Below are positions 15,600 through 32,183 of a stretch of DNA of 64,000 nt, piece after piece. Under the pieces are notes generated by a model that was not told the DNA's origin, made no database searches, and saw nothing but the letters and a program-made list of their open reading frames with translations. The number at the start of each line of letters is the position of its first letter. Position 1 is the first letter of the stretch. The stretch spans positions 5,006,220 through 5,070,219 of the forward strand of contig NZ_CP007128.1 of NCBI RefSeq assembly GCF_000522985.1, given 5' to 3'. The DNA comes from Gemmatirosa kalamazoonensis (GTDB lineage Bacteria > Gemmatimonadota > Gemmatimonadetes > Gemmatimonadales > Gemmatimonadaceae). A program made the position numbers and the translations under genes.

Positions 15600-16658
15600 A
15601 TGGAGAGCACGCTCACCTTCCCCATCGCCGGCGACGACGTCCCCGATCGCACCTCACTCCCCGCGCCGCTCGTCACCGCCGTCGAGCGCTTCAAGACGAG
15701 CATGCTCCTCCTCGATCGCAGCCTCCGCACGCGCCGGCTCGACGCCGCGCCGGCACAGGACGGCGTGAGCGCGGTGTGTGACGCGCTCTGCGCGAGCCTC
15801 CGCGAGCACGTCCGCCGCGCGACGCATCTCGAGCCGCAGATCGGTCGCTACGTCTTTCGCGAGACGTTCGCGTTCCTCGCCGGCAGCGCGAACATCGACC
15901 GCTGGGTCGCGAAGCCGCGCGGCTACGCCGGCGACTTCTACACGATCGATCTGATGTACGACGACCGCCCCGAGGGCGTCGGCCGACTCGGCCGACTGAT
16001 CGACCGGTGGGCGCTCGACCTGTCGGTGGTGCGCGCGGTGCGCAACCGACGCGGGCTCCTCGCCGATGCCATCCGCAGCGTCGCCGCACGCGCCGCCCGT
16101 GCCGCCGGCGAGCGGGTGCTCGTCACCAGCCTCGCGAGCGGCCCCGCGCGCGAGATCCTCGACGTGCTCGGCGCGCCGGACGCGCCACCCATCCACGCGA
16201 CGTGCATCGACATCGACGACGAGGCGATCGCGTTCGCGGCCGAGCGGGCGCGCGAGCGGCGCGTGGCCGAGCACATGACGTTCGCGCGCGACAACGTGAT
16301 CCGCCTGTCGCGCGGCCGCGGCCGGACGAGCGTCCCGCCGCAGCACCTGATCTACAGCGTGGGACTGATCGACTACCTCGAGGACGCGCACGTGGTCGCG
16401 TTGCTCGACTGGATCCACGACCGGCTGCGTCCAGGCGGCACCGCCATCCTCGGCAACATGGACGTCGCCAATCCCGACCGCGCGTTCATGGACCACATCC
16501 TCGACTGGCGGCTCATCCACCGCACCGCGGACGACCTCCGCGCGCTGTTCGCGCGCTCGCGGTTCGGCGATGCGCAGGTGCACGTGCGGGCGGAAGCCGA
16601 AGGGATCAACCTGTTCGCGTGCTGCGCGCGAGGCTCGGAGCTCGCGGCGGCGGCGTGA
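15600..16658 (+). CDS. Class I SAM-dependent methyltransferase (3-hydroxypalmitate methyl ester type)
   Basis: 352 residues. The middle has the family block RWVAKPRGYAGDFYTIDLMY, and the Rossmann core starts around residue 175 (VLVTSLASGPAREIL) with an acidic strand end CIDIDDEAI and a later YSVGLIDYL. This combination is typical of proteins annotated as extracellular factor 3-hydroxypalmitic acid methyl ester biosynthesis proteins, which make a fatty-acid methyl ester signal in Ralstonia. Whether this one makes a signal is not shown. It is the last host gene before the tRNA-Gln element. Confidence 0.75.
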   Translation: MESTLTFPIAGDDVPDRTSLPAPLVTAVERFKTSMLLLDRSLRTRRLDAAPAQDGVSAVCDALCASLREHVRRATHLEPQIGRYVFRETFAFLAGSANIDRWVAKPRGYAGDFYTIDLMYDDRPEGVGRLGRLIDRWALDLSVVRAVRNRRGLLADAIRSVAARAARAAGERVLVTSLASGPAREILDVLGAPDAPPIHATCIDIDDEAIAFAAERARERRVAEHMTFARDNVIRLSRGRGRTSVPPQHLIYSVGLIDYLEDAHVVALLDWIHDRLRPGGTAILGNMDVANPDRAFMDHILDWRLIHRTADDLRALFARSRFGDAQVHVRAEAEGINLFACCARGSELAAAA

Positions 16659-16678: not shown

Positions 16679-16764
16679 AGAAGCCCGGCGAGCAGCTAAG
16701 TGCTCGCCGGACTTCCAGTTGCCCCTCCTGGGCTCGAACCAGGACTCTTCTGATCCAGAGTCAG
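16679..16764. repeat. attL: displaced 3' end of tRNA-Gln with terminator hairpin
   Basis: These 86 bases match 32098-32183 with two substitutions. They include the hairpin GCCCGGCGAGCA...TGCTCGCCGG and the tRNA-Gln 3' half from acceptor arm to anticodon stem (minus-strand sense). The other half of the tRNA is missing here; the match stops at 16764. So this is the left junction of the integrative element, i.e. the host tRNA 3' end pushed 15.4 kb away. Confidence 0.92.
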
Positions 16765-16859
16765 GAATCTCGGCGCTTCTGGGGATTTCCACGTATAGCT
16801 AGACCGTTATTTGACAATAGCTTGGTGTGTCTGCAAATTGCTGGGCGTTGCTGCGAATG

Positions 16860-16905
16860 TGGTTCCTGTGGTTCCTATGTGGTTCCTGTAGCTGGACAGG
16901 AACCA
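16860..16905. promoter_or_regulatory. Integrase arm-type sites, left end
   Basis: Three direct copies of TGGTTCCT (16860-16867, 16869-16876, 16880-16887) and one inverted copy (16898-16905) lie between attL and the integrase start. The 19-base block at 16869-16887 recurs with one change at 32055-32073 just inside the other end. Repeats of this type next to both att cores are what tyrosine-integrase arm domains and excisionases bind. They may also overlap the integrase promoter. Confidence 0.7.
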
Positions 16906-16943
16906 CGCAGGAGCCGCGAGCGCCCCCTCCCCGGCCCCCGATC

Positions 16944-18392
16944 ATGCCCAAGCTCACGAAGCGCGCGGTGGACGCATTGGCACCCCAAACCGGCCCCGTC
17001 GCGGCCGACTTCTTCGTGTGGGACGACGACGTGAAGGGCTTTGGTGTGCGCGTCTGGCCCAGTGGGCGAAAGAGCTTCGTGTTCGCCTTCCGAATTGGAG
17101 GCCGCGCGGGCACCAAGCAGCGCGTGACGCTCGGCGACTTCGGCGCCCTGACGGTGGACGAAGCGCGGAAGCGCGCCACGCAGCTTCGCGCCGACGTCTT
17201 CGCCGGCCGCTCGCCGGCGGCCGAGCGCGCGGCTAGAAAGCGCGCAGTCGCTGCAGAGCGGGCGGCACCCACCGTTTCCGAAGCGGCGGACGCCTTTCTC
17301 GCCGAGTGCCGCGCAAAGCTGAAGCCGTCCACCGTCGCGGAGTACACGCGCTTGCTCGGCGTCACCGCGGCGAAGCGCGGCCCGTCCAAAGGCGCGGAAC
17401 GGCAGGGCGAGCTTCGGCGGGCGCTCGGCCGGTTTAAGGTGGCGGACATCACCAGGGCTCAGGTGGCGAAGCTGCACCTTGGCATGGCCGATAGGCCGTA
17501 CTCGGCAAATCGGGCGCTCGCCACACTCTCGGCCCTCTTCGTCTACGCCGAGCGCCAGGGCTTCCGACCGGACGGCTCGAACCCGTGCCGGCACATCTCG
17601 GCCTACCCAGAGCAGAAACGGGAACGGTACCTGACCGAAGCCGAGTTTGCGGCGCTCGGTGCCGCCCTCGCGCGCGCCGGACGCGAAGGGCTCCCAATTC
17701 CCCCCAAGCGCGAGCAGCGCCGGAAGGCCACGCCGGCGACCGCGAAGCACCGCACGAAGGACACGAGCCCCGAAGGGGCGCGCTCTCTCAAGCCCTTCAA
17801 CCCGATCGGCGTTGCGGTGCTGCGCTTCCTCCTGCTCACGGGGTGGCGAGAGGGCGAAGCGTTGACGCTCGAATGGGCACACGTTGACCACGCGTACCGC
17901 GGCGCGCCCAACGCGCCGCCGGGCTTCGTGGTGCTGCCCAACACGAAGACGGGGCGCAGCATTCGGGAGTTGGGGGCGCCGGCGTTCGCCGTTATGGACG
18001 AGATGCGCGCCCATCGCCACGCCGGGAACGAGTACGTCTTCCCCGGCAAGAAACCGGGCGCGCACTACACCGATACCGCTCGGGTCTGGGACGCCGTGCG
18101 CCATGCCGCAGGGCTCCCGGACGTGCGCTTGCATGACCTCCGGCACGCGTTTGCCAGCGTGGCTGCGTCCGGCGGGCTCACCCTCCCCCTGATCGGCGCG
18201 CTCCTGGGCCAGACTGACAGCGCCACAACGGCCCGGTATGCCCATCTGGTCGAGTCGAGCCGCAAGCGCGCTGCCGAGCAAACTTCGGCCGCAGTCGCTA
18301 CTGCGCTCGCCGCGGGGACGCCGGCAGCGCGCGGAAGCGATTCCGAATCCGTGACGCGGGTACGAGTGCTGCACCTCCCGCATCGCCCATAG
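16944..18392 (+). CDS. int: Tyrosine site-specific integrase, P4 family
   Basis: 482 residues from ATG 16944 (an upstream in-frame start would run through the arm sites). The N-terminus is the DUF4102 arm-binding domain (MPKLTKRAVDAL, KGFGVRVWPSG, VTLGDFGALT). The catalytic tetrad is visible as R302 (LLLTGWREGE), H397-x-x-R400 (LHDLRHAFAS) and Y432 (ARYAHL). A segment at about 250-285 rich in K/R lies between the core and catalytic regions. It recombines the tRNA-Gln att sites and belongs to the element. The right-end AlpA-like protein is a plausible excisionase or activator. Confidence 0.95.
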   Translation: MPKLTKRAVDALAPQTGPVAADFFVWDDDVKGFGVRVWPSGRKSFVFAFRIGGRAGTKQRVTLGDFGALTVDEARKRATQLRADVFAGRSPAAERAARKRAVAAERAAPTVSEAADAFLAECRAKLKPSTVAEYTRLLGVTAAKRGPSKGAERQGELRRALGRFKVADITRAQVAKLHLGMADRPYSANRALATLSALFVYAERQGFRPDGSNPCRHISAYPEQKRERYLTEAEFAALGAALARAGREGLPIPPKREQRRKATPATAKHRTKDTSPEGARSLKPFNPIGVAVLRFLLLTGWREGEALTLEWAHVDHAYRGAPNAPPGFVVLPNTKTGRSIRELGAPAFAVMDEMRAHRHAGNEYVFPGKKPGAHYTDTARVWDAVRHAAGLPDVRLHDLRHAFASVAASGGLTLPLIGALLGQTDSATTARYAHLVESSRKRAAEQTSAAVATALAAGTPAARGSDSESVTRVRVLHLPHRP

Positions 18393-18858
18393 TTACGCGC
18401 ACGTCTCAGCGGCAAACTTGCATGCGCGGCAACGCACCGCGCGGCGTAGTCTCCACCAAAGGCGCGCCCGGCGCGATCGCGCTAGTCGGCCGCGTGCACC
18501 TAGGCGCGAAGTACCAGCCGGTCATATCGACTAGCAGGTGGCGCTTGCGGCCCTGCACCCGACCGCCAGCGCGAACTGGGGCGCCATGATGGTGAGGTCG
18601 GGCTTTGACAAGTCGACAGGCACGCGCCGCGAACTAACGTCGGACACGCGAGCGTCCAGGCTAGCGCCACCGGGCACCTCCGCCCCTAAGCTCCGCCAGA
18701 CCAGCTACTTAGACTTGTGAAAACGGCGTCTGGCGAAGCCCGGGGGGGGAGTTGACTTTCGTGGGGATCGCTGGCGGGCGACCAGCACTCTCGACAGCTT
18801 CTGCGGCGGTCGCGCGGCCCTGTCTCGCGCGCGTGAGGAAGCCACATACATCGTCCCA
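18393..18858. other. Gene-poor stretch downstream of the integrase
   Basis: About 466 bases with no frame that looks coding: the only uninterrupted plus-strand frame (18538-18720) has no ribosome-binding site or recognisable motif. A run of nine G residues lies near 18741-18749. This is probably the promoter and leader region of the HNH gene, or a decayed gene. Confidence 0.5.
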
Positions 18859-19326
18859 ATGCCGAGCATCAAGTACCCGTTCCCGCAGTGCCTCTCGGGG
18901 TTGTGTCAACCGCCGGCCTATAGCCGCTGGCTCGCGCGGAAGGCTTCCGCCCACCGAAAACGGGATCGGGCGCGGGGCAACCAGACGGCGACGATCGAGG
19001 CGTACAAGTCGGCTATCCACGCGGCAGTGGCGTCGAGCGGCGGGGTTGACGCCTACACGGGCCGGCTCCTGCGATGGGATCTGATCAGCACGTACGACAA
19101 TGAGGCGTCGAGGGCTGGTAAGCGCGCGTACAAGGCATCCCTAGGAGATCTTCCGAGCGTCGATCACGTGGGTGACGGCCTTGGCGCGCCGCATTTCCGA
19201 ATCTGCGCGTGGCGTACGAACGATGCGAAGAACGACCTCTCGTATACGGAGTTTGTTGAGCTCTGCCGCGCCGTGATCGCGCATCACGATCGAGTGAGCA
19301 CACCCGTTCCCACGGCGGGCCCCTGA
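18859..19326 (+). CDS. HNH-like (His-Me finger) protein
   Basis: 155 residues. A Y-T-G-R-L-L-R-W-D element near residue 66, the LPSVDHVG motif with D102-H103, and the C-terminal RTNDAKNDLS (N121, K124, N125) make the beta-beta-alpha metal arrangement of HNH nucleases, with DH for the general-base histidine and N/K for the later positions. The zinc-knuckle cysteines are absent. The role is probably DNA cleavage or restriction of competing DNA, but activity is only inferred. Gene order puts it directly before the GIY-YIG protein. Base composition is less GC-rich than chromosomal genes. Confidence 0.6.
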   Translation: MPSIKYPFPQCLSGLCQPPAYSRWLARKASAHRKRDRARGNQTATIEAYKSAIHAAVASSGGVDAYTGRLLRWDLISTYDNEASRAGKRAYKASLGDLPSVDHVGDGLGAPHFRICAWRTNDAKNDLSYTEFVELCRAVIAHHDRVSTPVPTAGP

Positions 19327-19437
19327 TCGATCGTTGCATCCGACGGAGCCGCGCATCGCTCGTCGACTACCGCAGTTTAGCCCCGCGGCTCTACCGCTGC
19401 GCTCTCGCGTTATCCATCACTACTCAGCGCTCGTGGA

Positions 19438-20355
19438 ATGACCGGTTTCGGCAGGAGCCTTCGGATCTACCTCGCGGACGGTTCGCCTAGCGGAGTTCGT
19501 CTCGCGGAGATCGTCAACTGGACAGGTCAGGCGATCGCGTGCCCGCGTACTCGGATTGCAGAGCTCGTGGAGTGGGCAGAGGTGGCGCGCCCCGGAGTCT
19601 ATCTGCTGCTTGAAGGCGGCCTCGGTACTGATCGGGGAAGAGTCTACATGGGGGAAAGCGAGAACGTCCGCGATCGTCTTGCAAGCCACCTCCTGGAGAA
19701 GGAGTTCTGGACGGAGGCCGTAGCATTCACGAGCAAGGACACGAACCTCACCAAGGCTCACGTCCGCTACTTGGAGGCTCGCCTGATCCACCTAGCGAAG
19801 CTTGCTGGACGCTACGACGTCGACAACAGCAACGCTGGCTTTTCCGCAGCGCTCCCCAGAGCGGATGCGGATGCCATGGAGGAATTCCTCGCAAATCTCC
19901 GAATGGTACTTGGCGCTCTCGGGCACAGGCTGCTGGAGCCGCTCGTAATCGCCCCCGTCGTGCCCGCGCCGGTTACGGCTACAACCGTGCCCGCGCCGAG
20001 CGGGATTCTCGGTACGCTTCTGCGCTTTGACTTCCTAGGGCTTTCCGCAGTCGGATACGCCACTGACGAGGGCTTCACTGTGCTGAAGAAATCTCAGGTC
20101 GCGATTGATGCTCAGCCCAGTACGCCGAAGCACGTCATCGCCCTCCGTCAGGCTGCACTCGCGTCTGGAAGCATGGTGAAAAAAGGCGAACACTTCTCGA
20201 TCAATGAAGATATGGCCTTCACGTCGTCCTCGACGGCGGCTTGCTTCGTCGCGGGGTCGAGTCGAAGTGGGCCACTAAGCTGGCACACCGATACTGGCGT
20301 CACACTAAAGGAATTGGAGCAGCAATCCGCTGCTGGAATTGCCCCGGCGATCTGA
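19438..20355 (+). CDS. GIY-YIG nuclease family protein with C-terminal DUF4357-like region
   Basis: 305 residues. The GIY-YIG core is at about 50-115: GVY (53-55), VYMGES (69-74, the YIG equivalent), R78/R80 and the metal-binding glutamate E113 in YLEARL. The last third, from about residue 235 (HVIALRQAALASGSMV to TGVTLKELE), looks like DUF4357, commonly fused to such cores. Family proteins occur in defence islands and beside restriction systems. The substrate is unknown. It starts 111 bp after the HNH gene on the same strand. A 359-bp gap separates it from the methyltransferase operon. Confidence 0.75.
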   Translation: MTGFGRSLRIYLADGSPSGVRLAEIVNWTGQAIACPRTRIAELVEWAEVARPGVYLLLEGGLGTDRGRVYMGESENVRDRLASHLLEKEFWTEAVAFTSKDTNLTKAHVRYLEARLIHLAKLAGRYDVDNSNAGFSAALPRADADAMEEFLANLRMVLGALGHRLLEPLVIAPVVPAPVTATTVPAPSGILGTLLRFDFLGLSAVGYATDEGFTVLKKSQVAIDAQPSTPKHVIALRQAALASGSMVKKGEHFSINEDMAFTSSSTAACFVAGSSRSGPLSWHTDTGVTLKELEQQSAAGIAPAI

Positions 20356-20714
20356 TGGCTGACGCATCGTTGTAACTGGTAACTGCGAACGCGTCGGCCA
20401 CTTGAGCCGCACGCACGGCTCGGCCCCTCGGAGCACATTCCCGGCTGCACTCCGGCGTTAGCCGGATATTCGCGCCTCGATTCTGGACGGCTGATCGTCG
20501 TTCTCATGGCAGCTCCGGCATCGCGTGTTGCAGCACGCAATCGGCAACGCATGACGGGCACAGTTATTTCCTTCGCGTGTGCCTACCGCTAAGCCAGCAT
20601 ACGCGGAAGCATGTGCAGTGATATACGGACCTCTAGACGTGGCGCGCCGAAGCCGCCTCCCCGCAAGACCTCGGCGCTGATTCGCCCGTTTCGCCCGATT
20701 AGCGCAAACCTCTG
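20356..20714. other. Non-coding gap before the methyltransferase operon
   Basis: About 360 bases with no supported gene; an antisense frame at 20148-20561 overlaps the preceding gene and has no family features. This is the likely promoter region of the three-gene operon. No clear Shine-Dalgarno is visible at the 20715 ATG (a second ATG follows three codons later), so transcription or translation control here is not obvious. Confidence 0.5.
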
Positions 20715-23489
20715 ATGGGCTCTATGAACGCTGTTGAGATTGAGGAAGCAATCTCGGTTCTCGCCGAGCGACCATTCGACCCGACGGAATTCCCGTACGC
20801 GTTTCTGCAGGCGTTTGGCAACAAGGAGACGACTCTCAGCCGCCTGCGCGCTGGCAATACCAACAAGTCGGACGTGGGCGGCGTCCTGCAGCGGAACAAC
20901 ATACACCTGGCTGTGGCACCTCCAGGCGAGGTGTCTGCGAAGCTGTCCCAACTCCGCGAGAGCCCTGCTACGACGAAGCAGAAGGCCAAGTTCATTCTCG
21001 CCACGGATGGCGAGACCCTCGAGGCTGAGGATCTTGCGAGCGGTGAGCCGCTCGCCTGTGCCTGGGACGAGCTACCCGATCACTTTGGTTTTTTCCTTCC
21101 GCTGGCGGGGATCACCACCGTTAGACAGATCCGCGAGAACGCCTTTGACATCCGTGCGACCTCCAAGCTCAACAAGCTCTACGTCGCGCTCCTGAAGGAG
21201 AACCCCGCTTGGGGAAGCGACGAGCGCCGCCCAGATATGAACCATTTCATGGCGCGGCTGATCTTCTCGTTCTTCGCGGAGGACACGGGCATCTTCGCCG
21301 AGAGCAGGCTGTTCACCGATACCGTTTCCCGGATGAGTGCGGCCGACTCATCGAACACGCATGAGGTAATCGGCACGCTGTTCCGCGCGATGAACACGAA
21401 GCATGCTGACCGTGAGAACGCAGGGATCCCGCGGTGGGCGGCGTCATTCCCATACGTCAACGGCGGCCTCTTCTCCGACAAGGTGGACGTACCGCGCTTC
21501 TCGCGCACGGCGCGCTCGTACCTCCTGCAAGTAGGCTCGTTGGACTGGAAACAGATCAATCCGGACATCTTCGGGTCGATGATCCAGGCTGTGGCTGACG
21601 ATGAGGAGCGCGGGGCGCTCGGCATGCACTACACCAGCGTGCCGAACATCCTCAAGGTCCTTAACCCCCTCTTCCTGGACGACCTCCGCGCGAAGCTAGA
21701 GGAAGCGGGTGACAATTCGCGCACTTTGCTCAATCTGCGCAAGCGCATCGCCCGCATCCGCGTCTTCGACCCGGCCTGCGGCTCCGGAAATTTTCTCGTC
21801 ATCGCGTACAAAGAGATGCGGGCGATTGAGCACGAGATCAATCGCCGGCGGGGCCAGCCGGGCCGGCCGTCGGAGATCCCGCCTACCAACTTCCGTGGCA
21901 TCGAGCTGCGGGGCTTTGCAGCCGAGATTGCGCGTCTGGCACTCATCATCGCGGAGTTCCAGTGCGATGAGCTTTACCGGGGCCAGAAAGACGCGATTCA
22001 GGAATTCCTTCCTCTAGACGCTGAGAACTGGATCACCTGCGGCAACGCACTCCGGCTCGATTGGCTCGCGATCTGCCCCCGCACCGGAACAGAGGTAAAG
22101 CTGCTGGGGGATGACCTCTTCAACACACCGCTTGATCAACCTGAGATAGACTTTGAGAACGCGGGCGGAGAGACGTACATCTGCGGCAACCCTCCGTACA
22201 AGGGTCGTAACAAGAAGGATTCGACCCAGAAAGGAGACCTAGCTGCGGTCGCCGGGCCGCGAACGTCGAAGCACCGCACTATGGATTACGTCGCCGGCTG
22301 GCTGCTCAAGCTAGCCGACTACATCAGTGCTGTACCAGGAACTGCGGGCGCCTTTGTCGCGACCAACTCTGTCTGCCAGGGCGAACAGGTCCCAGTCATA
22401 TGGCCTCTCGTTTATGAGAGGGGCGTAGAGATCTTCTTCGCTCATCTGTCCTTTACATGGTCGAATCTCGCAAGCCACAATGCGGGCGTCACTGTAGTTG
22501 TCATAGGCCTTGCCGCAAACGGTACGCGCTCGAAATGCCTCTACAGCGGCACTTCAATGCGACTTGTAGCGAGCATCGGGCCGTATTTGGTGCCAAATAC
22601 TACGGTGATTGTGAAGGCAACCACTACGCCGCTCGGACCCCAGAAGAAGATGTACTTAGGCAGCATGGCGAAAGACGGTGGCAATCTGGTCATGTCGCTG
22701 AAGGCCGCGCGTGACCTTGTTCAGAACCATGGTGTCAACTCGGCCTTCGTACGGCAGTTCTTTGGATCAGAGGAAGTGATATACGGGAAGCCGCGAGCTT
22801 GTTTGTGGATCGATGACAGCCACGCGGACTCCGCACTCAAGAATGCCGCTATTGCGGAGATCGTAGAGCGTGTGCGGCGGTTCAGGAGGCAGAGCGACGC
22901 GCCTTCGACCCGCGCATTCGCTTCGACGCCGCACCGGTTTGTCCAGCTCTCTGCGGCAAGCGGAACACGAGCCATCATCGTTCCAAGAGTCTCATCGGAG
23001 AACAGGCCTTATCTCCCCGTCAGCTACTTCGCCGCCGGGCCGGTTATTGGGGACAAGTGCTATGCGATCTATGATGCGCCGCTGTGGAACATGGCGCTGG
23101 TCGCTTCGCGCCTCCATTGGGTCTGGGTCGGCACGGTTTGCGTCCGCTTGGAGATGCGGTTCTCGTATTCCAATACCCTTGGCTGGAACACGTTTCCGGT
23201 TCCGGCGCTAACGGACCAGAACATGGCCGATCTGACTCGCTGCGCCGAGGACATTCTGCTCGCGCGTGAGGTGCACTACCCTGCGACGATCGCCGACCTG
23301 TATGATCTGGAGACGATGCCGGACAATCTACGGGAAGCGCACGAGCGCAACGACGAAGTGCTGGAGCGGATCTACATTGGGCGCCGCTTCCGCAACGACA
23401 CCGAACGGCTTGAGAGGCTCTTTGCCATGTACACGCAGATGACGGCAAACGAGAAGCGCTCCAGCACGGCCCGCAGGATGCGCGGATGA
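20715..23489 (+). CDS. MmeI-like N6-adenine DNA methyltransferase
   Basis: 924 residues. Domain order by eye: N-terminal region (1-165) without a PD-(D/E)XK nuclease motif; MmeI helical spacer (about 175-330, with LIFSFFAEDTGIF, FPYVNGGLF and GALGMHYTS); methyltransferase core with SAM motif I DPACGSGNF (352-360) and catalytic NPPY (492-495); then target-recognition and C-terminal regions (YSNTLGWNTFPVP, IADLYD, IYIGRRF). NPPY methyltransferases modify adenine N6 (or cytosine N4). MmeI itself also cuts; here the nuclease seems to be missing. The last four bases, ATGA, overlap the helicase start. Likely the self-protection subunit of a restriction or exclusion system. Confidence 0.9.
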   Translation: MGSMNAVEIEEAISVLAERPFDPTEFPYAFLQAFGNKETTLSRLRAGNTNKSDVGGVLQRNNIHLAVAPPGEVSAKLSQLRESPATTKQKAKFILATDGETLEAEDLASGEPLACAWDELPDHFGFFLPLAGITTVRQIRENAFDIRATSKLNKLYVALLKENPAWGSDERRPDMNHFMARLIFSFFAEDTGIFAESRLFTDTVSRMSAADSSNTHEVIGTLFRAMNTKHADRENAGIPRWAASFPYVNGGLFSDKVDVPRFSRTARSYLLQVGSLDWKQINPDIFGSMIQAVADDEERGALGMHYTSVPNILKVLNPLFLDDLRAKLEEAGDNSRTLLNLRKRIARIRVFDPACGSGNFLVIAYKEMRAIEHEINRRRGQPGRPSEIPPTNFRGIELRGFAAEIARLALIIAEFQCDELYRGQKDAIQEFLPLDAENWITCGNALRLDWLAICPRTGTEVKLLGDDLFNTPLDQPEIDFENAGGETYICGNPPYKGRNKKDSTQKGDLAAVAGPRTSKHRTMDYVAGWLLKLADYISAVPGTAGAFVATNSVCQGEQVPVIWPLVYERGVEIFFAHLSFTWSNLASHNAGVTVVVIGLAANGTRSKCLYSGTSMRLVASIGPYLVPNTTVIVKATTTPLGPQKKMYLGSMAKDGGNLVMSLKAARDLVQNHGVNSAFVRQFFGSEEVIYGKPRACLWIDDSHADSALKNAAIAEIVERVRRFRRQSDAPSTRAFASTPHRFVQLSAASGTRAIIVPRVSSENRPYLPVSYFAAGPVIGDKCYAIYDAPLWNMALVASRLHWVWVGTVCVRLEMRFSYSNTLGWNTFPVPALTDQNMADLTRCAEDILLAREVHYPATIADLYDLETMPDNLREAHERNDEVLERIYIGRRFRNDTERLERLFAMYTQMTANEKRSSTARRMRG

Positions 23490-25555
23490 ACGGCGAGCGC
23501 ATGGAGGTTCCTTCGATCTCGGTGAAGTACGCCGGAAACGGAAGCTCGACAAAATTGAACGTCCTGGGCATGCGTCCGATGCAGGAGCGGGCCTGGCAGC
23601 ATCGCGGCGAGCCGTACCTCCTGATTAAGTCGCCGCCAGCCTCCGGCAAGAGCCGGGCGCTGATGTTCATCGCCTTGGACAAGTTGCACAACCAGGGGAT
23701 AAGGCAGACGATCATCGTCGTGCCGGAACGCGCCATTGGCGCCTCTTTTCATAACGAGCGGCTCACAGACAGCGGCTTCTGGGCGGACTGGGTGGTTGCG
23801 CCCCAGTGGAACCTGTGCGACGCCTCCGGTACCGATGTCGGCAAGGTCGCCGCTGTAGAGTCGTTTCTGGCGAGTGACGACCGCGTGCTGGTCTGCACAC
23901 ACGCCACCTTCCGCTTCGCCGTTGAGCGGTTCGGTGTGGAGGCGTTTGACGACCGATTGGTCGCGGTGGACGAGTTCCACCATGTCTCGGTGAGCGAGGA
24001 CAACATCCTCGGCCGCCACTTGGGCGCGCTTATCTCACGCGGCAAGGTGCACATGGTGGCGATGACCGGCTCGTACTTCCGCGGCGACGCCGAGGCCGTG
24101 CTGGCGCCATCCGATGAGGCGAAATTCGCGACCGTCACCTACACGTACTACGAGCAGCTCAATGGGTACCAGTACCTGAAGCGGCTGGACATCGGCTACT
24201 TCTTTTACTCGGGTTCGTACGTCGACGACATCCTCAAAGTCCTCGATCCGGCCGAGAAGACGATCGTCCACATACCGAACGTCAATTCTCGCGAGAGCAC
24301 ACAGGACAAGCTCCGCGAGGTGGAGATGATCCTCCACGCGCTCGGCACCTGGGAAGGGGCGGACGGCACCACGGGCTTTCAGCTTGTCCGCACACCGGAG
24401 GGGCGTCTCCTCCGAATCGCTGACCTGGTGGACGACGAGCCGGCAAAACGGAACCGTGTGATAGCGGCCCTAAAGGATCCGGCGCAGAAGAACAACCGCG
24501 ACCACGTCGACATCATCATCGCACTTGGGATGGCGAAGGAGGGATTCGACTGGATCTGGTGCGAGCATGCACTGACGGTGGGATACAGGTCCAGCCTTAC
24601 AGAGATCGTGCAGATCATCGGGCGGGCCACGCGCGATGCCCCCGGGAAGAGCCGCGCGCGCTTCACCAACCTCATTGCGGAACCGGACGCCGCGGAGCAG
24701 GCGGTGACCGAGGCGGTTAATGACACCCTGAAGGCGATCGCCGCTTCGCTACTGATGGAGCAGGTGCTGGCGCCGCGCTTCGAGTTTCGGCCGAAGAACC
24801 CGACCAACACCGCGACTGAGGGCTTTGACTACGGCGAGGGGGGCTACGATCCGAAGGGGAGGAACGTCGGATTTAATGCCGAAGAGGGGAGGCTCCAGAT
24901 CGAGATTGCGGGCCTCGCCGAGCCGAAGAGTGACGAGGCGAAACGGATCATCCAGGAGGACCTGAACGAGCTGATCGCCGCGGTCGTCCAAGACAAGCCG
25001 ACGATCGAACACGGGATCTTCGACATGGAGTTGATGCCGCAGGAGATCACCCAGGTTCAGGTTGGCAAGATCGTCCGTGAGCGCCACCCCGATCTTGCCG
25101 AGGAAGATCAAGAAGCGATTCGCCAACGCGTGATCGCGGCCATGGCCTTTGCCCAACATGCGAAGCAGCTGGCTGAACGGGACACGAACGAGAGAGCCGA
25201 TCCGGTCGAGCGTCTCAACACCGCGTTCGTGGACGGTGTCCGCCGCTTCGCGATGGACGTCCGAGAGCTGGACATCGACCTGATTGACTCGATCAACCCC
25301 TTCGGCCAGGCCTACGCTATTCTCAGTAAGGCGATGACTGAGGAGCGGCTGCGCGCGATTCAGGCGGTGGTGGAGGCCAAACGCATCGCCATCTCCCCCG
25401 ATGACGCAAAGGACCTAGCGCTCCGGGCGGCGATGTTCAAACGCGAGCGTGGTCGGCTCCCGTCGCTGACGGCGACGGACCCCTGGGAGCGTCGGATGGC
25501 TGAGGGAGCAAAGGCCTTCGTTCGCTTTAAGGATGAGGGGCGCTATGACGGGTAA
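23486..25555 (+). CDS. SF2 DEAD/DEAH-type helicase
   Basis: 689 residues, starting in the ATGA overlap with the methyltransferase stop. Motif I is PPASGKS (50-56), motif II DEFH (162-165), motif III-like TGS (194-196), and motif VI QIIGRATRD (376-384), an arginine finger typical of COG1061/type III Res-like helicases. The region after residue 400 has no familiar domain. Expected role: ATP-driven DNA translocation or unwinding with the methyltransferase and nuclease. The 3' end overlaps the start of the GIY-YIG gene by 11 bases, indicating obligate co-expression. Confidence 0.9.
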   Translation: MNGERMEVPSISVKYAGNGSSTKLNVLGMRPMQERAWQHRGEPYLLIKSPPASGKSRALMFIALDKLHNQGIRQTIIVVPERAIGASFHNERLTDSGFWADWVVAPQWNLCDASGTDVGKVAAVESFLASDDRVLVCTHATFRFAVERFGVEAFDDRLVAVDEFHHVSVSEDNILGRHLGALISRGKVHMVAMTGSYFRGDAEAVLAPSDEAKFATVTYTYYEQLNGYQYLKRLDIGYFFYSGSYVDDILKVLDPAEKTIVHIPNVNSRESTQDKLREVEMILHALGTWEGADGTTGFQLVRTPEGRLLRIADLVDDEPAKRNRVIAALKDPAQKNNRDHVDIIIALGMAKEGFDWIWCEHALTVGYRSSLTEIVQIIGRATRDAPGKSRARFTNLIAEPDAAEQAVTEAVNDTLKAIAASLLMEQVLAPRFEFRPKNPTNTATEGFDYGEGGYDPKGRNVGFNAEEGRLQIEIAGLAEPKSDEAKRIIQEDLNELIAAVVQDKPTIEHGIFDMELMPQEITQVQVGKIVRERHPDLAEEDQEAIRQRVIAAMAFAQHAKQLAERDTNERADPVERLNTAFVDGVRRFAMDVRELDIDLIDSINPFGQAYAILSKAMTEERLRAIQAVVEAKRIAISPDDAKDLALRAAMFKRERGRLPSLTATDPWERRMAEGAKAFVRFKDEGRYDG

Positions 25556-26732
25556 CATTGATCTCGACGCGCTTCGCGCCGATCTGGCGGAGTTTGCCGA
25601 GCCGGCGCCTGAGGCGGCAGGTTCGCCACTCGGAGAGCGCGTCCTTGCCGGCTTCGATGAGATTCAGCGGTGGGTCACTGAGCACGGTCGCTTGCCGTGT
25701 CACGGCGAGGGGATCGACATCTTTGAACGCCTGTACGCCGTGCGCCTTGATCGGATTCGCGCGCAGCAAGAGCTATGTGCCCTGCTGGAGCCGATCGATC
25801 ATCACGGTATTCTGAAGGGGAGCAAGGAGTTGCCGTCCGATCCCGCCACTTTGAGTGTTGACGAGTTGGCTGCTCAGCTGGCAGGCATCGCTAGATCCGA
25901 GTCGGAGATTACGACACTGCGCCACGTGCGCTCTCGCGCCGAGATCCAGTCGGCGGAGGAGATCGCAACCCGCCAGCCGTGCGCGGACTTTGAGCAGTTC
26001 CAGCCGCTCTTCAAGGGGGTTCAGGACGAGATTAGGGCCGGAATCAGACAAACGCGGCGCTTCGGCAGGGATGCCATCATCACGGTTCGCGATTTCTTCG
26101 TTCTGGGTGGGCAGCTCGTATACGTCGCCGAGATGGGTGAAGTGTATCGGACGCCGGAGGGCGCACCGAATGCACGACTCCGCGTGATCTACAGCAATGG
26201 CACCGAGAGCAACCTCCTTATCCGTTCGCTGCAGAACGCGCTCTACAAGGATGAAACCGGACGCCGAGTCACCGAACCCGATGCGGGGCCGCTCTTTGCC
26301 GCGCACGCCGATGAAGGCGACCTGGCCAGTGGGAAAGTGTATGTCCTCCGTAGCAGATCTGATCACCCTGAGATCGCGTCAAGGCGCGACCTCATTCACA
26401 AGATCGGCGTGACAGGTGGAGACGTTGCCGGTAGGATCGGCAACGCAAAGCTGGACCCCACCTATCTGCTGGCGGATGTGGAGGTCGTTACGACCTATCA
26501 GCTCTACCACATCAACCGGACGAAGTTAGAGAACCTGCTCCATCGCGTCTTCGATCCGGCGCGTTTGAGCATCACGCTCACCGACCGCTTTGGCAATCCG
26601 GTGTCGCCGCGGGAGTGGTTTCTGGTTCCGCTGTTCGTTATCGACGAAGCGATTGAGCGGATCAGGGACGGGACGATCACGGACTACAGCTATGACCCCG
26701 CGAAGGGATCCTTGGTTCGGCGGAAGACGTGA
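25545..26732 (+). CDS. GIY-YIG (T5orf172/MUG113-type) nuclease-like protein, third gene of the operon
   Basis: 395 residues. The ATG at 25545 is chosen over 25533 because GAGGGG lies 5-6 bases upstream; both are in the helicase 3' end. The N-terminal 260 residues are not recognised and may bind partners. The GIY-YIG core follows: VYVL at 265-268, HKIGVT at 285-290, R297, and glutamate E329 in KLENLL. T5orf172-like cores are known in phage and restriction proteins. It is the natural candidate for the missing cutting activity of the adenine methyltransferase. Catalysis is inferred; the first GIY element is the VYVL variant, so activity could be weak or lost. Confidence 0.8.
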   Translation: MTGNIDLDALRADLAEFAEPAPEAAGSPLGERVLAGFDEIQRWVTEHGRLPCHGEGIDIFERLYAVRLDRIRAQQELCALLEPIDHHGILKGSKELPSDPATLSVDELAAQLAGIARSESEITTLRHVRSRAEIQSAEEIATRQPCADFEQFQPLFKGVQDEIRAGIRQTRRFGRDAIITVRDFFVLGGQLVYVAEMGEVYRTPEGAPNARLRVIYSNGTESNLLIRSLQNALYKDETGRRVTEPDAGPLFAAHADEGDLASGKVYVLRSRSDHPEIASRRDLIHKIGVTGGDVAGRIGNAKLDPTYLLADVEVVTTYQLYHINRTKLENLLHRVFDPARLSITLTDRFGNPVSPREWFLVPLFVIDEAIERIRDGTITDYSYDPAKGSLVRRKT

Positions 26733-27134
26733 GCTTGGGATCCGCCTGCGCATCCGCGGCTTCGACAGTCCGCTCTTTTTCTAAGCTTAAGCGAACGTCA
26801 GCCAGCGCGCGGGCAAACGCGATGGTGCCGCAGAGGCAACCGGGGGATCGAGCCGTCCTAGACATTCGCGATCCGAGGCGGCACCGCGTTCCGTGCGCTA
26901 GCCAACGTGCGTTGGAGAAGGCATAAACCGACCCCAAATGTCCTCTTGCGCGTGGTGGTGGCCCTGACCTGCTTGCCGGCACGTTCACCATCACGATCGC
27001 CGAGTGCGTCGCGAGCGCAGAGCGACATCGCGCTGACGCTGCAAAGTGGCCCGGGCCGTATCGCTCTTTATTTAGGTGCCCGCCAGAATTGCTCGCGGTC
27101 GTCACCGCCGTCGTGACGACCGTCGTGACGATAG
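26733..27134. other. Convergent gap between cargo operon and packaging/replication operon
   Basis: About 400 bases where the two element halves converge. On the minus strand a 153-codon frame (27138 down to 26677) begins in an ATGA overlap with the terminase-like gene, but it has no family motif, starts with a TTVVTTAVTT repeat, and runs 56 bases antisense into the GIY-YIG gene, so I do not call it as a gene. Direct and inverted CGTCGTGACGA words occur at 27112-27133. Confidence 0.4.
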
Positions 27135-27770
27135 TCATGTCGCCGCGCTGCGGCTGGCGGCACTGTCCGTGGCGTCTTCGGTCAGGATTTCGCGCACCAT
27201 GGCGAGCGGGATGCCGCTGCCGCCGGGGCCAGAGAACTCGCGCGCTTCCTTGCGGCCCCAGCGCCTGAAGCTGGTTCGTTCGAGCATCCACGCGCTGGCC
27301 GTCCAGATGGGCGCCCGCTCTTCTTCGACGACCACCGTGCACTCCCTCGTGCCGTCGAGCAGCGTGCGTTCGGTGGTGATGGTGCGGCGTGGGCTGCCCA
27401 TGGCGCAGCGCGTGATGTTCTGAACGTGCGCGTCCTCACGCTTCGCTTCAGCGGTCCGTACGGCGAGCCAGAACGCGAGGCACAGGGTCGCTGCCTCGTC
27501 GGCGGGCGGCGCGTCGCCGCGCCTGGCGCGTCCGAGTTGCTTGAACGCGGCGAGCCCACGACCGAGCCAACGGCTGGCCGTGCGTGGAGGGACGCCGGCG
27601 AGGCGGGCGGCGGTCTCGAACCAGTTACCGGAGGCGATGCGCTCCGCGACGGCGGTGACGATTTCGGGCGTGATTTCTATGGGCCGGCCGGGCTGCCTGG
27701 GCCGTCCATGAATGCAGTCAGGGAGCTGTGGCGCGTTGCGCCGGGTGCGCTGCTCGCGTGCGTCCGTCAT
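27135..27770 (-). CDS. Phage terminase small subunit-like HTH protein
   Basis: 211 residues. After a basic start, residues about 30-70 read as the helix-turn-helix of small-terminase-like proteins (P-E-I-V...RIASGNWFETAARLAGVPPRTASRWLGRG), and near 170 the typical C-terminal APIWTASAWMLERTSFRRWGRKE block appears. Such proteins recognise pac/cos DNA and recruit the large terminase. A lone terS with no large subunit or capsid genes is what phage satellites use to redirect helper-phage packaging. Alternatively it is just an HTH regulator; there is no DNA-binding evidence here. Confidence 0.65.
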   Translation of the reverse strand: MTDAREQRTRRNAPQLPDCIHGRPRQPGRPIEITPEIVTAVAERIASGNWFETAARLAGVPPRTASRWLGRGLAAFKQLGRARRGDAPPADEAATLCLAFWLAVRTAEAKREDAHVQNITRCAMGSPRRTITTERTLLDGTRECTVVVEEERAPIWTASAWMLERTSFRRWGRKEAREFSGPGGSGIPLAMVREILTEDATDSAASRSAAT

Positions 27771-27880
27771 TCGACTTCCCTCCTGAAGATGTGCCGTCCG
27801 CGCCAGTCCCGATCGCCGCCGTAACGACGACGATCGGCGCCGTCAGCGGCCCCACGCGCGCACGGGCGCGGCACCGGGGG

Positions 27881-28297
27881 TCAGGCGCGTACCACGTCTT
27901 CCGCGGCCCGGATCTCGGCGAGCCAGCGCGGGCACCCGGCGTCATGCTCGTACACCGCGGCGCGTTCGTCGAACACGTCGCGCGCGTCGGACTCAAGCGA
28001 ATCGCGAAGCACCCACGCCCAAGCCGCAACGGTCACGACGTCCGGCGACAGCCCCGGCCAGCCGGGGCACCCGAGCGTGCCGAGCGCGACGTGCGCCTGG
28101 TCAAGCGCCCGGCGTACATCGCGCCACGTGGTGCCGAGCACGGCCACGGCATCCTCCACGTCGGCCGCGTCCAGCGGCGTGCCAACCAACGGCGCGCGCA
28201 ACTCCACCCCGTCGCCTGCCGGGGCGATCGTCGCGCCGACTCGTGTTGCCCACGTGAGAAGATCCAGGGCTCCCGGCGGGTACACCGCGCCACTCAT
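27881..28297 (-). CDS. Phage/element protein of unknown function
   Basis: 138 residues from ATG 28297; a longer frame upstream is antisense and overlaps the DUF3631 3' end, so it is not used. The N-terminal half (ALDLLTWATRVGATIAPAGDGVELRAP) resembles the short domain often found in primase-adjacent phage proteins (TubC-N-like), and the rest is an alpha-rich acidic stretch ending in VYEHDAGCPRWLAEIRAAEDVV. Placed between the DUF3631 helicase and the terminase-like gene on the same strand. Function unknown. Confidence 0.55.
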   Translation of the reverse strand: MSGAVYPPGALDLLTWATRVGATIAPAGDGVELRAPLVGTPLDAADVEDAVAVLGTTWRDVRRALDQAHVALGTLGCPGWPGLSPDVVTVAAWAWVLRDSLESDARDVFDERAAVYEHDAGCPRWLAEIRAAEDVVRA

Positions 28298-28313
28298 ACC
28301 GTTAGGCGCGCCG

Positions 28314-30037
28314 CTAGCCGGCGCTACTGTGGAAGCGCGCGAGCACTTCCGGCCGCGCTGCTGGTCGCGGAATAACAGTCTGCGCGTCCCGCTCATACGG
28401 GACACGTGGGACAACCGGGACAAGTGGGACGCGTCCGCCGTGCGAAGGTCCCACTTGTCCCGGTTGTCCCGCGTGTCCCACATGGTAGGGGGGCGCGGGT
28501 TGATCTTCCGCGCTGGCCAAAGCGTCGCTCGGGGAATAACCGTAGCGCTCGCCGGCGGCGTGCAACGCAGCACGAGGGTAACCGCGCACATTCGCCCCGT
28601 CGATCCTGCGCTGCTCGGCGTGGACGCCGAAGCGCCGCAGGTAATCGGCGAGCTTTTTCGCCGTCAGCCCCTGGCGTCCGAGCGTCGGCCACGGTTTGAG
28701 CGGATCGCCGTTCAACGACTGCACCAACTCGGCACTTGGGACGAGCTCCCCGTCGGCTGCCGGGTTCGCGGCGCAGTAGGCGCACACATCGCGCAACGCC
28801 AGCTCGCCCACGTCGCGTGGCTCGTCGCGCGCACCGGCCTGCATGAACGCCAGCGCCGCAGCGCGAGCGGCCGCCGGCCAACGCGCACCGGCGGCGTCGG
28901 CGAGTGTCACCAACGGGATCCACAGGTCCGCGTCACGGCCGACGATTCCGGCCGGAAGCGCCGGCCGAGCAGCGAGCGCGCCGGCGTCCCGCGTGTCGGT
29001 TGTCCACCGTACGAGCTGCGCAGCGAGCGGGGCGGCACTCGGCCGGTCGTGCTCCGAGAACGGCAGCAGCGCGGCGAGCTGCGCGGCGTCCGCGCGCTCC
29101 ATCCGAAGCACCACGCAGCGCGAGCGCGTGGCGTCCGGCAGTGGCACCGCAATACCGGAGAGCAGCTTCGGACAGAACACGTCGAAGGCGGCAACGTCGT
29201 ACGCGGTGCTTTCGCCCACGCACCGGATGGCCTGTCCGCCGACGCGCGCCCCCGCGTTCAGCAGGTTCACGATCCCGTCCTCCCGCTTCGTCGTGAGCCA
29301 TGAGTCGGCTTCGTCCAAGAACACCGTCGGCTTGAAGCGTTCGACGACCCGGTAAAGCGCCGCCGGCGAGCAGTCCATGGCGGCGAGCGAGCGCCGGGCG
29401 AGCGCTGCCAGCACGCCTAACAGAGTGGACTTCCCACACGCGCGCGCGGGCGAGCTGAGAAGCAGGTACGGCGTCACGGGCCAAACGTCGAACACGTACG
29501 TGTGCGCCAGCCACAGGGCGCACACGTCTGCCGCGTGCGGTGGGAGCGCGACGCGCTGCGCCACGAACGCGGCCACCGCGTCGAGCAGCGTGGCGCCATC
29601 CACCGGCTCATGCCACGGCTCGGGGTCATCGAACACGAGTCGCGCACCCCGGCCCGCCGCGTCTTCCATTGCTGCGTCGCCGGCGCCGGGGCGCGCGGCG
29701 AGCTGCACGCCGAGCGCGGCGAGCACCCCGAGAAGGGGCGCCTCGTGCTCTCCATCGAGCCCCCCAGAGCGGGCGCGCTCGACGAGCCGTGCGCGCGCGC
29801 GCTGTCGCGCGCCAGGTCGCACGTGTCGAGCGCGGCCGGCGTGGCGGTGTCGGCCGGCACGTACACCGCGACTGTGGCGCGCACCGCGCGACCGCGAGGC
29901 AGCGTCACTACGACGCTCCACGCGCCCGCTGGATCGCGGCGCGTCCACGTCGCCCCCGTGTCGCCGACCGCGGCGCACGCGAGGGCCGCGGCCGCCGTCT
30001 CGGCCGCGACGATCGTGGGGTCTACGGGCGCGGTCAT
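28314..30037 (-). pseudogene. DUF3631 helicase (phage replication type), frame broken near 29795
   Basis: The gene starts at 30037 in an ATGA overlap with the Prim-Pol stop (MTAPVDPTIVAAE...). That frame is sensible until the CG run at 29790-29801; the remaining protein (EHEAPLLGVLAALGV, Walker A SPARACGKST, Walker B VFLDEAD, then the DUF3631 C-terminal block) continues in another frame to 28314. Removing one CG unit joins them into about 574 residues. So this is either a real mutation, phase-variable by repeat slippage, or an assembly error. Function expected: replicative helicase of the element with the adjacent Prim-Pol. Confidence 0.75.
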
Positions 30038-30981
30038 GCCGCCCCCCGCGGGCCGCCGTAGAGGGCGGCGTTCGCCGCGACGCGCGCAAGTTCGTCGAAC
30101 GACAGCGGCGGGCGGTTCGTCGCGTTCCACTCGGCGAGGAAGGCGGCCACCTCGTGCGGGCCGAGCTGCATATCGTGCAACAGGACCACGGCGATGCGAA
30201 AAGCGGTCATGTTCCTGCCGTCTCCGTCGCCGAGCGCGTGCGGCACGCGCGCGAGGTACGCCAGCGCGCGGCGCCGCGCGTCGGCCCCCGCCGGTGTCCG
30301 CCGGGGGCACATATGCGTACGCGCCCTGCCGGCATAGCGCGTGTCGTTGCGCGCCGCGTTGCCGCGCGTCGTCGTGCCGTCGCGCGTCGGGGCGAGGAGC
30401 CGCGCGAGCAGCACCGGCGGTAGCGGCGCGGCCGGGGCAGTGACCGTCCAACGGTACTCGGCGCCGCTGGGATGCACGCTCGGCGGCACGATGACGTAGC
30501 CACGCGCGTGGCGCACGTCGAGCCCGGAGCCGAGCGCGCGGTTGCTGATGATGAGCGGCGCGCCGTCGACCGTTGACGTCGGCACCACGAAGTAGCGGTG
30601 ACAGCCACCATCGGGGCGCCCCGTCGTCGCAGTCAGCGTATCGGTGGGCACGCCGAGCGCGTCAGCCGTCGCAAAGCCCCTCGGCCCGTCCAGGTCCAGG
30701 GCGACGAGTGCGTACGGCGCGCCCGCGACGAGCAGACGGCTCAGCCCCGGCACCACGCCGATGTTGGCGCGCGGCTCGGCACGCCACCAAGCGGCGACCG
30801 TCGACGGGTCGGTGCTCGCACCGTGAAAACCGTTAGGCAGCAGCGGCAGCTTCGCGCCTGGCGCGCAGGGCAGCACGGCCCATCCGCGCCGCGCGTAGGC
30901 AACCGCGGCGCACGCGAGTGGGGTGGCGCCCGGGAACGGCGCGCCAGCCACCTCCGAAGGGACCCGCTCCGGCGCGCTCAT
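30034..30981 (-). CDS. Bifunctional primase/polymerase, Prim-Pol N-terminal family
   Basis: 315 residues from ATG 30981 (the ATGA overlap with the AlpA-like gene; a frame upstream is ignored). Features: RRGWAVLPCAPGAKLPL opening, WWRAEPRANIGVVPG, catalytic DxD in LVALDLDGP (near 100-105) and GGCHRYFVVP, the sequence order of archaeo-eukaryotic primase domains in plasmids and phages. It should start replication of the excised element. The stop overlaps the DUF3631 start. Contains a CGTTAGGC octamer at 30831, unlike the cargo genes. Confidence 0.88.
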   Translation of the reverse strand: MSAPERVPSEVAGAPFPGATPLACAAVAYARRGWAVLPCAPGAKLPLLPNGFHGASTDPSTVAAWWRAEPRANIGVVPGLSRLLVAGAPYALVALDLDGPRGFATADALGVPTDTLTATTGRPDGGCHRYFVVPTSTVDGAPLIISNRALGSGLDVRHARGYVIVPPSVHPSGAEYRWTVTAPAAPLPPVLLARLLAPTRDGTTTRGNAARNDTRYAGRARTHMCPRRTPAGADARRRALAYLARVPHALGDGDGRNMTAFRIAVVLLHDMQLGPHEVAAFLAEWNATNRPPLSFDELARVAANAALYGGPRGAA

Positions 30982-31178
30982 GCGGCCCGGGGGGTGTCGG
31001 ACGTCGAGCGCCGCTTCCCCCGCGCGGCGACCCACGCTTCCAGGTCAGCGACTTCGTAGACGACCCGCGCGCCGATCTTGATGTACGGCGGACCGCCACC
31101 GACGACGCGCAGCTTGGCAAGAGTGGCTGGGGCGAGTTTCACAAGCTCTGCGGCTTCCTTCGCGTCCAGTAGGGGCAT
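30978..31178 (-). CDS. AlpA/excisionase-like helix-turn-helix protein
   Basis: 66 residues from ATG 31178, chosen over a further upstream start because GAGGTG lies 6 bases before it. Sequence LLDAKEAAELVKLAPATLAKLRVVGGGPPYIKIGARVVYEVADLEAWV is a MerR-like HTH_17 helix pair with a winged hairpin, as in AlpA and phage excisionases. Expected to activate or excise the element. First gene of the leftward replication operon, divergent from the repressor; ATGA overlap with the primase start. Confidence 0.85.
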   Translation of the reverse strand: MPLLDAKEAAELVKLAPATLAKLRVVGGGPPYIKIGARVVYEVADLEAWVAARGKRRSTSDTPRAA

Positions 31179-31248
31179 GGCGTCACCTCGAGTTGGGGTA
31201 CGCCTCACCATCGCAGTTTCCAGCCATTGCTAACGAGTCGCAGCAATA

Positions 31249-31285
31249 TCACTTTCTTGGGATATGAAGACTCCCAAGAAAGTGA
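31249..31285. promoter_or_regulatory. Perfect inverted repeat operator over the repressor start codon
   Basis: Arms of 14 bases, TCACTTTCTTGGGA (31249-31262) and its exact complement TCCCAAGAAAGTGA (31272-31285), flank a 9-base centre that contains the ATG (31264) of the XRE regulator. The AlpA-like gene starts 71 bp to the left. A palindrome of this kind at a divergent repressor/regulator junction is a classic operator. It could also be a leader hairpin sequestering the start codon. Confidence 0.8.
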
Positions 31286-32097: not shown

Positions 32098-32183
32098 AGA
32101 AGCCCGGCGAGCAGCTAAGTGCTCGCCGGGCTTTCAGTTGCCCCTCCTGGGCTCGAACCAGGACTCTTCTGATCCAGAGTCAG
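32098..32183. repeat. attR: direct repeat within tRNA-Gln
   Basis: Second copy of the 86-bp direct repeat, two substitutions relative to 16679-16764. It includes the 3' half of the tRNA-Gln gene and its terminator. The match ends at 32183, inside the anticodon stem region, so the crossover lies there or further into the repeat. The element brought its own copy of the tRNA 3' end, leaving this tRNA intact. Confidence 0.92.
32101..32132 (-). terminator. Terminator of tRNA-Gln
   Basis: Perfect 13-bp stem AGCCCGGCGAGCA / TGCTCGCCGGGCT with a 6-base loop, located just 3' of the minus-strand tRNA and followed in that direction by CTTTTC. The attL copy at 16682-16713 keeps this hairpin with one altered end position. 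Confidence 0.75.

Follow-up and report, generated by a model that had tools for sequence, protein, structure and literature searches.

The three overlapping genes analysed here from Gemmatirosa kalamazoonensis, which encode an MmeI-like methyltransferase, an SF2 helicase and a T5orf172/GIY-YIG protein, are a further member of the DnmA-YeeB-YeeC (yeeA-yeeB-yeeC) kind of cluster, which is widespread, previously reported and poorly understood in function. The initial annotation, which knew of no experimental description of this exact trio, is superseded on that point by publications on the Bacillus subtilis cluster (PMC7261158, PMC9973331); its view of a split system otherwise stands, in that the genes form a conserved unit in which the nuclease triad of the methyltransferase is dead and the helicase and GIY-YIG sites are kept. 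We consider it probable that the trio is an ATP-dependent restriction-modification (R-M) system of the DnmA-YeeB-YeeC type, whose recognition/modification, motor and nuclease functions are divided among three chains. The relevant features are as follows, with positions given in the window, i.e. the whole analysed stretch of 64,000 nucleotides:

20715..23489 (+), MmeI-family methyltransferase gene; ORF of 924 aa; DnmA/YeeA-like, N6-adenine, with a target-recognition domain (TRD) and a dead N-terminal nuclease domain
20880..20918 (+), lost D-x9-E-x-K nuclease triad site, residues G56...A66-V67-A68, by alignment to stand-alone MmeI homologues
22599..23210 (+), TRD, residues 629-832; Pfam MmeI_TRD; hypervariable among trio members
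23486..25555 (+), YeeB-like SF2 helicase/translocase gene; 689 aa; Pfam DEAD
25545..26732 (+), YeeC-like GIY-YIG (T5orf172/MUG113) putative nuclease gene; Pfam MUG113, T5orf172

Locus, mobile island and distribution

The overlaps of 4 and 11 bases proposed in the initial annotation, together with its three family assignments, were confirmed from the reading frames and by Pfam. The methyltransferase and helicase genes share 4 bp (ATGA), and the best start of the GIY-YIG gene, ATG 25545 with GAGGGG just upstream, gives an 11-bp overlap with the helicase TAA at 25553-25555; an alternative upstream start, ATG 25533, would extend this to 23 bp. For the methyltransferase gene, homologues favour ATG 20724 over 20715. 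All three frames are intact, and a promoter/terminator scan returned matches no better than chance level. A 15.4-kb integrase/primase island inserted in a tRNA-Gln gene carries the trio as cargo; the features of the island outside the trio are:

16679..16764 (no strand), attL, 86-nt direct repeat, 98% identical to 32098-32183
16827..18392 (+), island tyrosine integrase; Pfam Arm-DNA-bind_3 and Phage_integrase; PHROG integrase
27135..31035 (-), island replication/packaging block of three genes
27135-27770 (-), terminase-small-subunit-like gene of that block
28314-30089 (-), DUF3631 ATPase gene of that block
30034-31035 (-), Prim-Pol gene of that block
32098..32183 (no strand), attR, overlapping the 3' part of tRNA-Gln(CTG) 32137-32210 (-)

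No empty site was identified from the synteny of the gene that flanks the island on its left. The PDC-S14 gene (19438-20355) was rejected as a fourth component, its homologue lying near only one other trio locus (L067, 39%).

Loss of co-occurrence among homologues, or an active nuclease in the N-terminus of the methyltransferase, had been set beforehand as results that would speak against a split system. With respect to the former, all three genes were found in the same order at 100 of the 101 helicase loci with enough flanking sequence, drawn from GTDB genomes, plasmids and IMG/VR contigs, an association far above chance. At least 553 GTDB contig stretches carry the helicase gene. Within Gemmatimonadota (395 genomes), the helicase and the trio-type methyltransferase occur in the same 7, and the GIY-YIG gene occurs in those 7 and as one truncated, frameshifted remnant.

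The Gemmatirosa trio and the B. subtilis cluster, the latter with its Vibrio crassostreae homologues, have in common an MmeI-like methyltransferase without a REase motif, an SF2 helicase directly downstream and a T5orf172/GIY-YIG gene in third place, in the same order and on the same strand, in a mobile or defence region. The Gemmatimonadota copy, which we liken to that of B. subtilis by gene content and order, differs in forming a separate lineage and in being uninterrupted, with 4- and 11-bp overlaps and a tRNA-Gln island. B. subtilis was among the control genomes matching the MmeI_Mtase family, a match at family level, and at four Bacillota trio loci (L135, L145, L160, L168) the helicases are 71-72% identical.

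Active sites lost and retained

The methyltransferase matches all five Pfam domains MmeI_N, MmeI_hel, MmeI_Mtase, MmeI_TRD and MmeI_C (E 2e-16 to 7e-107), the architecture common to the type IIL enzymes MmeI and DrdV, and contains the SAM motif and NPPY. The PADLOC REase_MTase_IIG model spans its full length, its PDB match is MmeI (5hr4, E 2.4e-125) and its spacer superposes on that of MmeI (Z 18.0, 1.9 Å over 136 residues). As the initial annotation had suspected from the lack of a visible N-terminal nuclease motif, the alignment columns of MmeI D70, E80 and K82, single mutation of any of which kills MmeI cleavage, are occupied by G56, A66 and A68. The complete D...ExK triad is present in 13/13 stand-alone MmeI homologues versus 0/107 trio methyltransferases; a D-x(7-13)-[DE]-x-K pattern, searched for without alignment, matches 11 of the 107 trio N-termini, in each case off the aligned triad positions, and such off-column matches were not scored as the motif. 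For the B. subtilis cluster, the missing REase motif and the helicase/nuclease neighbours had been reported by Morgan et al. 2009, according to PMC7261158.

Despite loss of the triad, the N-domain retains a mean identity of 71% among trio members, and in the predicted structure residues 8-135 align with the nuclease domains of DrdV (Z 7.2, 118 aligned, 3.7 Å), HsdR (3h1t, Z 6.3) and BpuSI (Z 5.6). A restriction-endonuclease-like fold is thus predicted to be kept, and the dead domain is probably a docking or regulatory module. With the triad absent, the split view withstands the second of the results set beforehand, as it does the first.

In the helicase, motifs I, II, III, V and VI are conserved in 130-135 of 135 homologues, and homologues of 64-80% identity are spread over several phyla; no nuclease domain was recognised within it by Pfam. 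The third protein matches MUG113 (9.7e-13) and T5orf172 (1.8e-9), and the catalytic residues of the T5orf172 branch of the GIY-YIG superfamily (GxxY ... (Y/K)IG ... R ... E) are all present. Across 133 homologues, G263, Y266, K286, G288, R297, E329, H333, E357 and W358 are 98-100% conserved, and I287, within K286-I-G288, is conserved in 93%. E329, singled out in the initial annotation, is the conserved GIY-YIG glutamate; the lysine it named as K285 is likewise conserved, but becomes K286 if numbering begins at ATG 25545. The AF2 model of the third protein (pLDDT 87.9) has a helical N-terminus and a middle SH3-like barrel (residues 165-245, SH3/EF-P-like; fold search Z at most 5.1); the alignments used for structure prediction left out plasmid-collection sequences. 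T5orf172 is a divergent GIY-YIG branch, and a fold search with the whole model matched this middle domain only; both points speak against the R-M reading, and for its GIY-YIG assignment the protein depends on the Pfam matches and the conserved residues.

Judged by sequence, the trio is an obligately linked unit of defined domain content, in which one active site has been lost and the others kept.

Exchange of target recognition and nested genes

Over 88 loci, the TRD has a mean pairwise identity of 0.435, compared with 0.69-0.81 in the other domains. Pairwise identities of the helicase, GIY-YIG protein and methyltransferase correlate (r 0.62-0.74; 0/500 shuffles), whereas those of TRD and helicase do not (r 0.06; 85/500 shuffles). 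The three proteins therefore share one history, with the TRD changing independently; recognition specificity is swapped and the machine retained, as expected of an active, specificity-switching R-M system.

At half of the trio loci, extra genes are inserted exactly between methylase and helicase, and never between helicase and nuclease. These nested genes include RhuM, YhcG, DarTG, VapC, zeta, Schlafen-like and PLD-like genes. RhuM stands directly behind the modification gene in trio loci, in annotated type I operons (hsdM-RhuM-hsdS-hsdR) and in MTase-RhuM-helicase operons. PrrC in type I R-M loci is a known precedent for an effector firing on defeat of R-M. By analogy, we tentatively raise the possibility of an active R-M class in which the dead nuclease domain might couple recognition to the motor-nuclease pair and which might offer a fixed slot for second-line toxins or effectors, these probably firing when R-M is defeated.

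Possible mechanism and relation to known systems

In the mechanism we favour, the MmeI-like protein would recognise a short asymmetric site via its TRD and methylate adenine on one strand, as DnmA does, so marking host DNA. At an unmethylated site on incoming DNA it would recruit the co-translated helicase/GIY-YIG pair, of which the helicase would translocate DNA using ATP and the GIY-YIG protein would cut it; for the Gemmatirosa copy we infer docking, translocation, cleavage and phage restriction. Such a system would work like type I R-M (HsdM/HsdS/HsdR), where methyltransferase, ATP-driven motor and nuclease are likewise on separate subunits and where accessory genes such as RhuM also nest behind the M gene. 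The trio is not itself type I, since it has no separate HsdS, its TRD being fused to the methyltransferase, and since its nuclease is a GIY-YIG protein on its own chain, rather than a PD-(D/E)XK domain fused to the motor as in HsdR. From type IIL enzymes (MmeI, DrdV) it differs in lacking the nuclease triad and in having linked helicase and GIY-YIG genes.

Studies of B. subtilis report that DnmA produces m6A at GACGAG and propose a type I-like R-M role for DnmA-YeeB-YeeC (PMC7261158, PMC9973331), with conserved synteny and phage tests of the cluster in the 2023 paper (PMC9973331). Deletion of dnmA left plasmid transformation unchanged, deletions of cluster genes left sensitivity to three phages unchanged and phage genomes show no avoidance of DnmA sites; the authors term the cluster a relic and DnmA an orphan methyltransferase (PMC7261158, PMC9973331). 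According to PMC9973331, deleting the homologues in Vibrio crassostreae increased sensitivity to some phages. In the DnmA-YeeB-YeeC literature we found no biochemical demonstration of YeeC nuclease activity.

The absence of a restriction phenotype in B. subtilis and the transcriptional effects of DnmA there (PMC7261158, PMC9973331) would suit an orphan epigenetic methyltransferase, with the helicase and GIY-YIG protein being remnants or having an unrelated role. We regard this as unlikely, given the near-invariant active sites of both proteins in 133-135 homologues, the trio staying together at 100/101 loci, the intact Gemmatirosa frames and a diversification of the TRD unexpected for a conserved regulatory methyltransferase.

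T5orf172 is sparsely characterised, and PglX-type BREX methyltransferases are distant relatives of the trio methyltransferase; a BREX-like exclusion, in which missing methylation is sensed and replication blocked without cleavage, the GIY-YIG protein being a DNA-binding or structural subunit, is to our mind slightly less likely still, with the canonical GIY-YIG positions (GxxY, KIG, R, E) all conserved. The BREX core comprises PglZ and BrxC with PglX; we found weak PglX matches to the methyltransferase motif only, and the cargo genes that were scanned matched neither PglZ nor BrxC. DISARM, the core of which is the DrmA helicase and DrmB (DUF1998), usually with DrmC, was also rejected: the class 1 methyltransferase DrmMI is distantly MmeI-like (trio methyltransferase match, E 6.6e-26), but no DrmA, DrmB or DrmC model matched among the five cargo genes scanned (PADLOC). 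A one-chain type IIL enzyme with two accessory downstream genes, as the full-length matches to MmeI and PADLOC type IIG models might suggest, is rejected as highly improbable, D70, E80 and K82 all being replaced and the complete triad missing in 107/107 trio members.

The present data argue for most copies of the trio being intact and under restriction-type selection, as suggested by TRD switching and invariant active sites, contrasting with the relic label given to the B. subtilis cluster. Whether DnmA-YeeB-YeeC restricts, and which of its proteins cuts, becomes a simply testable question, and the trio methyltransferase provides an example from nature of how a nuclease domain can be kept after its catalysis was lost.

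A conserved trio of the DnmA-YeeB-YeeC kind

The initial annotation proposed a coupled system of three genes, and these ORFs lie where it had placed them, all on the forward strand:

20715-23489, +, gene 1, methyltransferase (MTase), matching every MmeI Pfam domain
23486-25555, +, gene 2, SF2 helicase, Pfam DEAD helicase family
25545-26732, +, gene 3, GIY-YIG protein, Pfam MUG113 and T5orf172

Genes 1 and 2 share the 4 bp ATGA, and genes 2 and 3 overlap by 11 bp, provided that gene 3 starts at ATG 25545, directly 5' of which stands GAGGGG. The nearest solved structure to gene 1 is MmeI (5hr4). The GC content of the trio (~0.60-0.62, versus ~0.70-0.75 in the surroundings) is consistent with acquired DNA.

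A helicase profile picked out at least 553 stretches of GTDB contigs that encode the protein and 43 of IMG/VR, and the window helicase matches 264 plasmid records. The set of helicase loci has some redundancy and over-represents close relatives, but it includes 40-48% identical members and spans Pseudomonadota, Bacillota, Actinomycetota, Cyanobacteriota and Gemmatimonadota. Among the 101 with at least 3.5 kb of upstream and 1.6 kb of downstream sequence, each except L194 has the MTase gene before the helicase gene and the GIY-YIG gene after it, with all three in one orientation, i.e. the trio is kept together. Within the window's phylum (395 genomes), one and the same set of seven genomes accounts for every full-length helicase and MTase (>360 bits); the GIY-YIG gene occurs in those seven plus G111. 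The G111 gene (locus L217, G111:C25, 8032-8908) is a lone YeeC-like fragment with a truncated N terminus and a frameshift, accompanied by neither helicase nor MTase, and is a leftover of a lost trio.

The trio had been thought undescribed, which is wrong because literature exists on dnmA (yeeA), yeeB and yeeC of B. subtilis, to whose kind it belongs (PMC7261158, PMC9973331). DnmA produces m6A at GACGAG (PMC7261158); according to the same source, a 2009 list placed DnmA among MmeI homologues that have lost the endonuclease motif and whose neighbours are helicase and nuclease genes, and a type I-like restriction-modification (R-M) system was suggested. Synteny is kept at positions +1 and +2, and a phage phenotype was absent in B. 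subtilis (PMC9973331); that paper also cites increased phage sensitivity on deletion of the V. crassostreae homologues. A 2025 review still terms DnmA an orphan MTase (PMC12707154).

Active sites lost and kept

Cleavage by MmeI requires D70, E80 and K82 (PMC4833311). In an alignment, this D-E-K triad is present in 13/13 stand-alone homologues (two plasmid-borne, and 11 from the window's phylum, of which several are nearly identical) versus 0/107 trio MTases; the window MTase has G56, A66 and A68 at these columns, in line with the earlier remark that it has no visible N-terminal nuclease motif. The G224 genome encodes one protein of each kind. Mean pairwise identity of the trio N-domain is 71%. 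In a fold comparison, its predicted structure matched DrdV (Z 7.2), HsdR (3h1t, Z 6.3) and BpuSI (Z 5.6), in each case over the nuclease domain, with modest values that exceed those for unrelated folds (Z <=4.5); the spacer aligns to MmeI with Z 18.0. Constraint on a dead nuclease domain suggests a role in structure or docking.

Helicase motifs I, II, III, V and VI are kept in 130-135 of 135 proteins. The GIY-YIG core proposed for gene 3 is borne out by its Pfam matches and by G263, Y266, K286, G288, R297, E329, H333, E357 and W358, which are 98-100% conserved in 133 proteins. As modelled by AF2 (pLDDT 87.9), the third protein has a helical N terminus, then an SH3-like barrel (residues ~165-245; best fold match Z 5.1) and a C-terminal T5orf172 domain. 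The predicted barrel, at residues 165-245 before the GIY-YIG domain, resembles EF-P domain I and is possibly a nucleic-acid or partner-binding module.

The island carrying the trio

The trio lies in an island between att repeats, the right one of which overlaps the 3' part of tRNA-Gln(CTG):

15113-15544, globin-like ORF (by eye), just outside the left att site
15600-16658, Methyltransf_20 protein, following it, also just outside
16679-32183, island, 15.4 kb; 86-nt repeats, 98% identical, at 16679 and 32098
18859-19326, 155-aa ORF right after the integrase, endonuclease VII (HNH-like), weak PHROG match (E 0.0056)
19438-20355, second GIY-YIG-like protein, with DUF4357, PADLOC candidate PDC-S14 (E 1e-96)

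Its genes, including a tyrosine integrase, the endonuclease VII-like ORF, PDC-S14, a terminase-small-subunit-like gene, DUF3631, Prim-Pol and a repressor, resemble those of a phage satellite, here in Gemmatimonadota. PDC-S14 adjoins the trio; it is generally unassociated with trio loci. G244, a second genome of the family, has a related element beside the same tRNA-Gln/tRNA-Ala pair (8844-19500 of L226, G244:C1:2864000-2883500), with 74% (integrase), 56% (Prim-Pol), 52% (DUF3631) and 37% (repressor) identity. This element lacks the trio; its own cargo includes an ORF that has a methyltransferase motif of DPPF type (14539-16323 of L226, reverse strand). The island core appears to carry exchangeable R-M-type cargo.

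Probable target switching and nested genes

Among 88 closely related trio loci, mean identity is 69-81% for the other MTase domains versus 43.5% for the target-recognition domain (TRD). Pairwise identities of helicase, GIY-YIG protein and MTase correlate (r 0.62-0.74; 0/500 shuffles), whereas those of TRD and helicase do not (r 0.06; 85/500 shuffles). Judged from sequence, this is the pattern of a putative restriction system that swaps its target and retains its machinery, which counts against a pure epigenetic regulator or a relic.

The MTase-helicase gap is at least 300 bp in 52 of the 106 loci having all three genes; a helicase-GIY-YIG gap above 60 bp occurs in none of them. About half of the trio loci (L092, L093, L098-L177 and others) hold 1-4 extra genes exactly at the MTase-helicase junction, encoding RhuM, YhcG, AlbA_2, PLD-like, DarTG, VapC, RelE-like, zeta-like and uncharacterised families. 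Where the junction holds such an insertion, its first ORF overlaps the MTase stop by the identical 4 bp in 40 of 61 loci. Pfam confirmed YhcG/DUF1016, RhuM, Schlafen AlbA_2, zeta toxin and DarT, and in plasmid trio operons VapC, RelE and YafQ are annotated inside or adjoining. The window trio has no insert. RhuM also directly follows the M gene in three of four plasmid hits inspected, of which two are type I operons and one is an MTase-helicase operon, which favors a functional analogy to ATP-dependent R-M systems. The known precedent is PrrC, which nests in a type I locus.

The split-system proposal stands as regards the absent triad, the otherwise kept active sites and the gene linkage (100/101), and falls as regards novelty. 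The window trio is a real, conserved and probably active split R-M system; to the reported DnmA-YeeB-YeeC cluster, our results add a quantified triad loss, a dead domain kept under constraint, TRD switching and a slot for nested genes.
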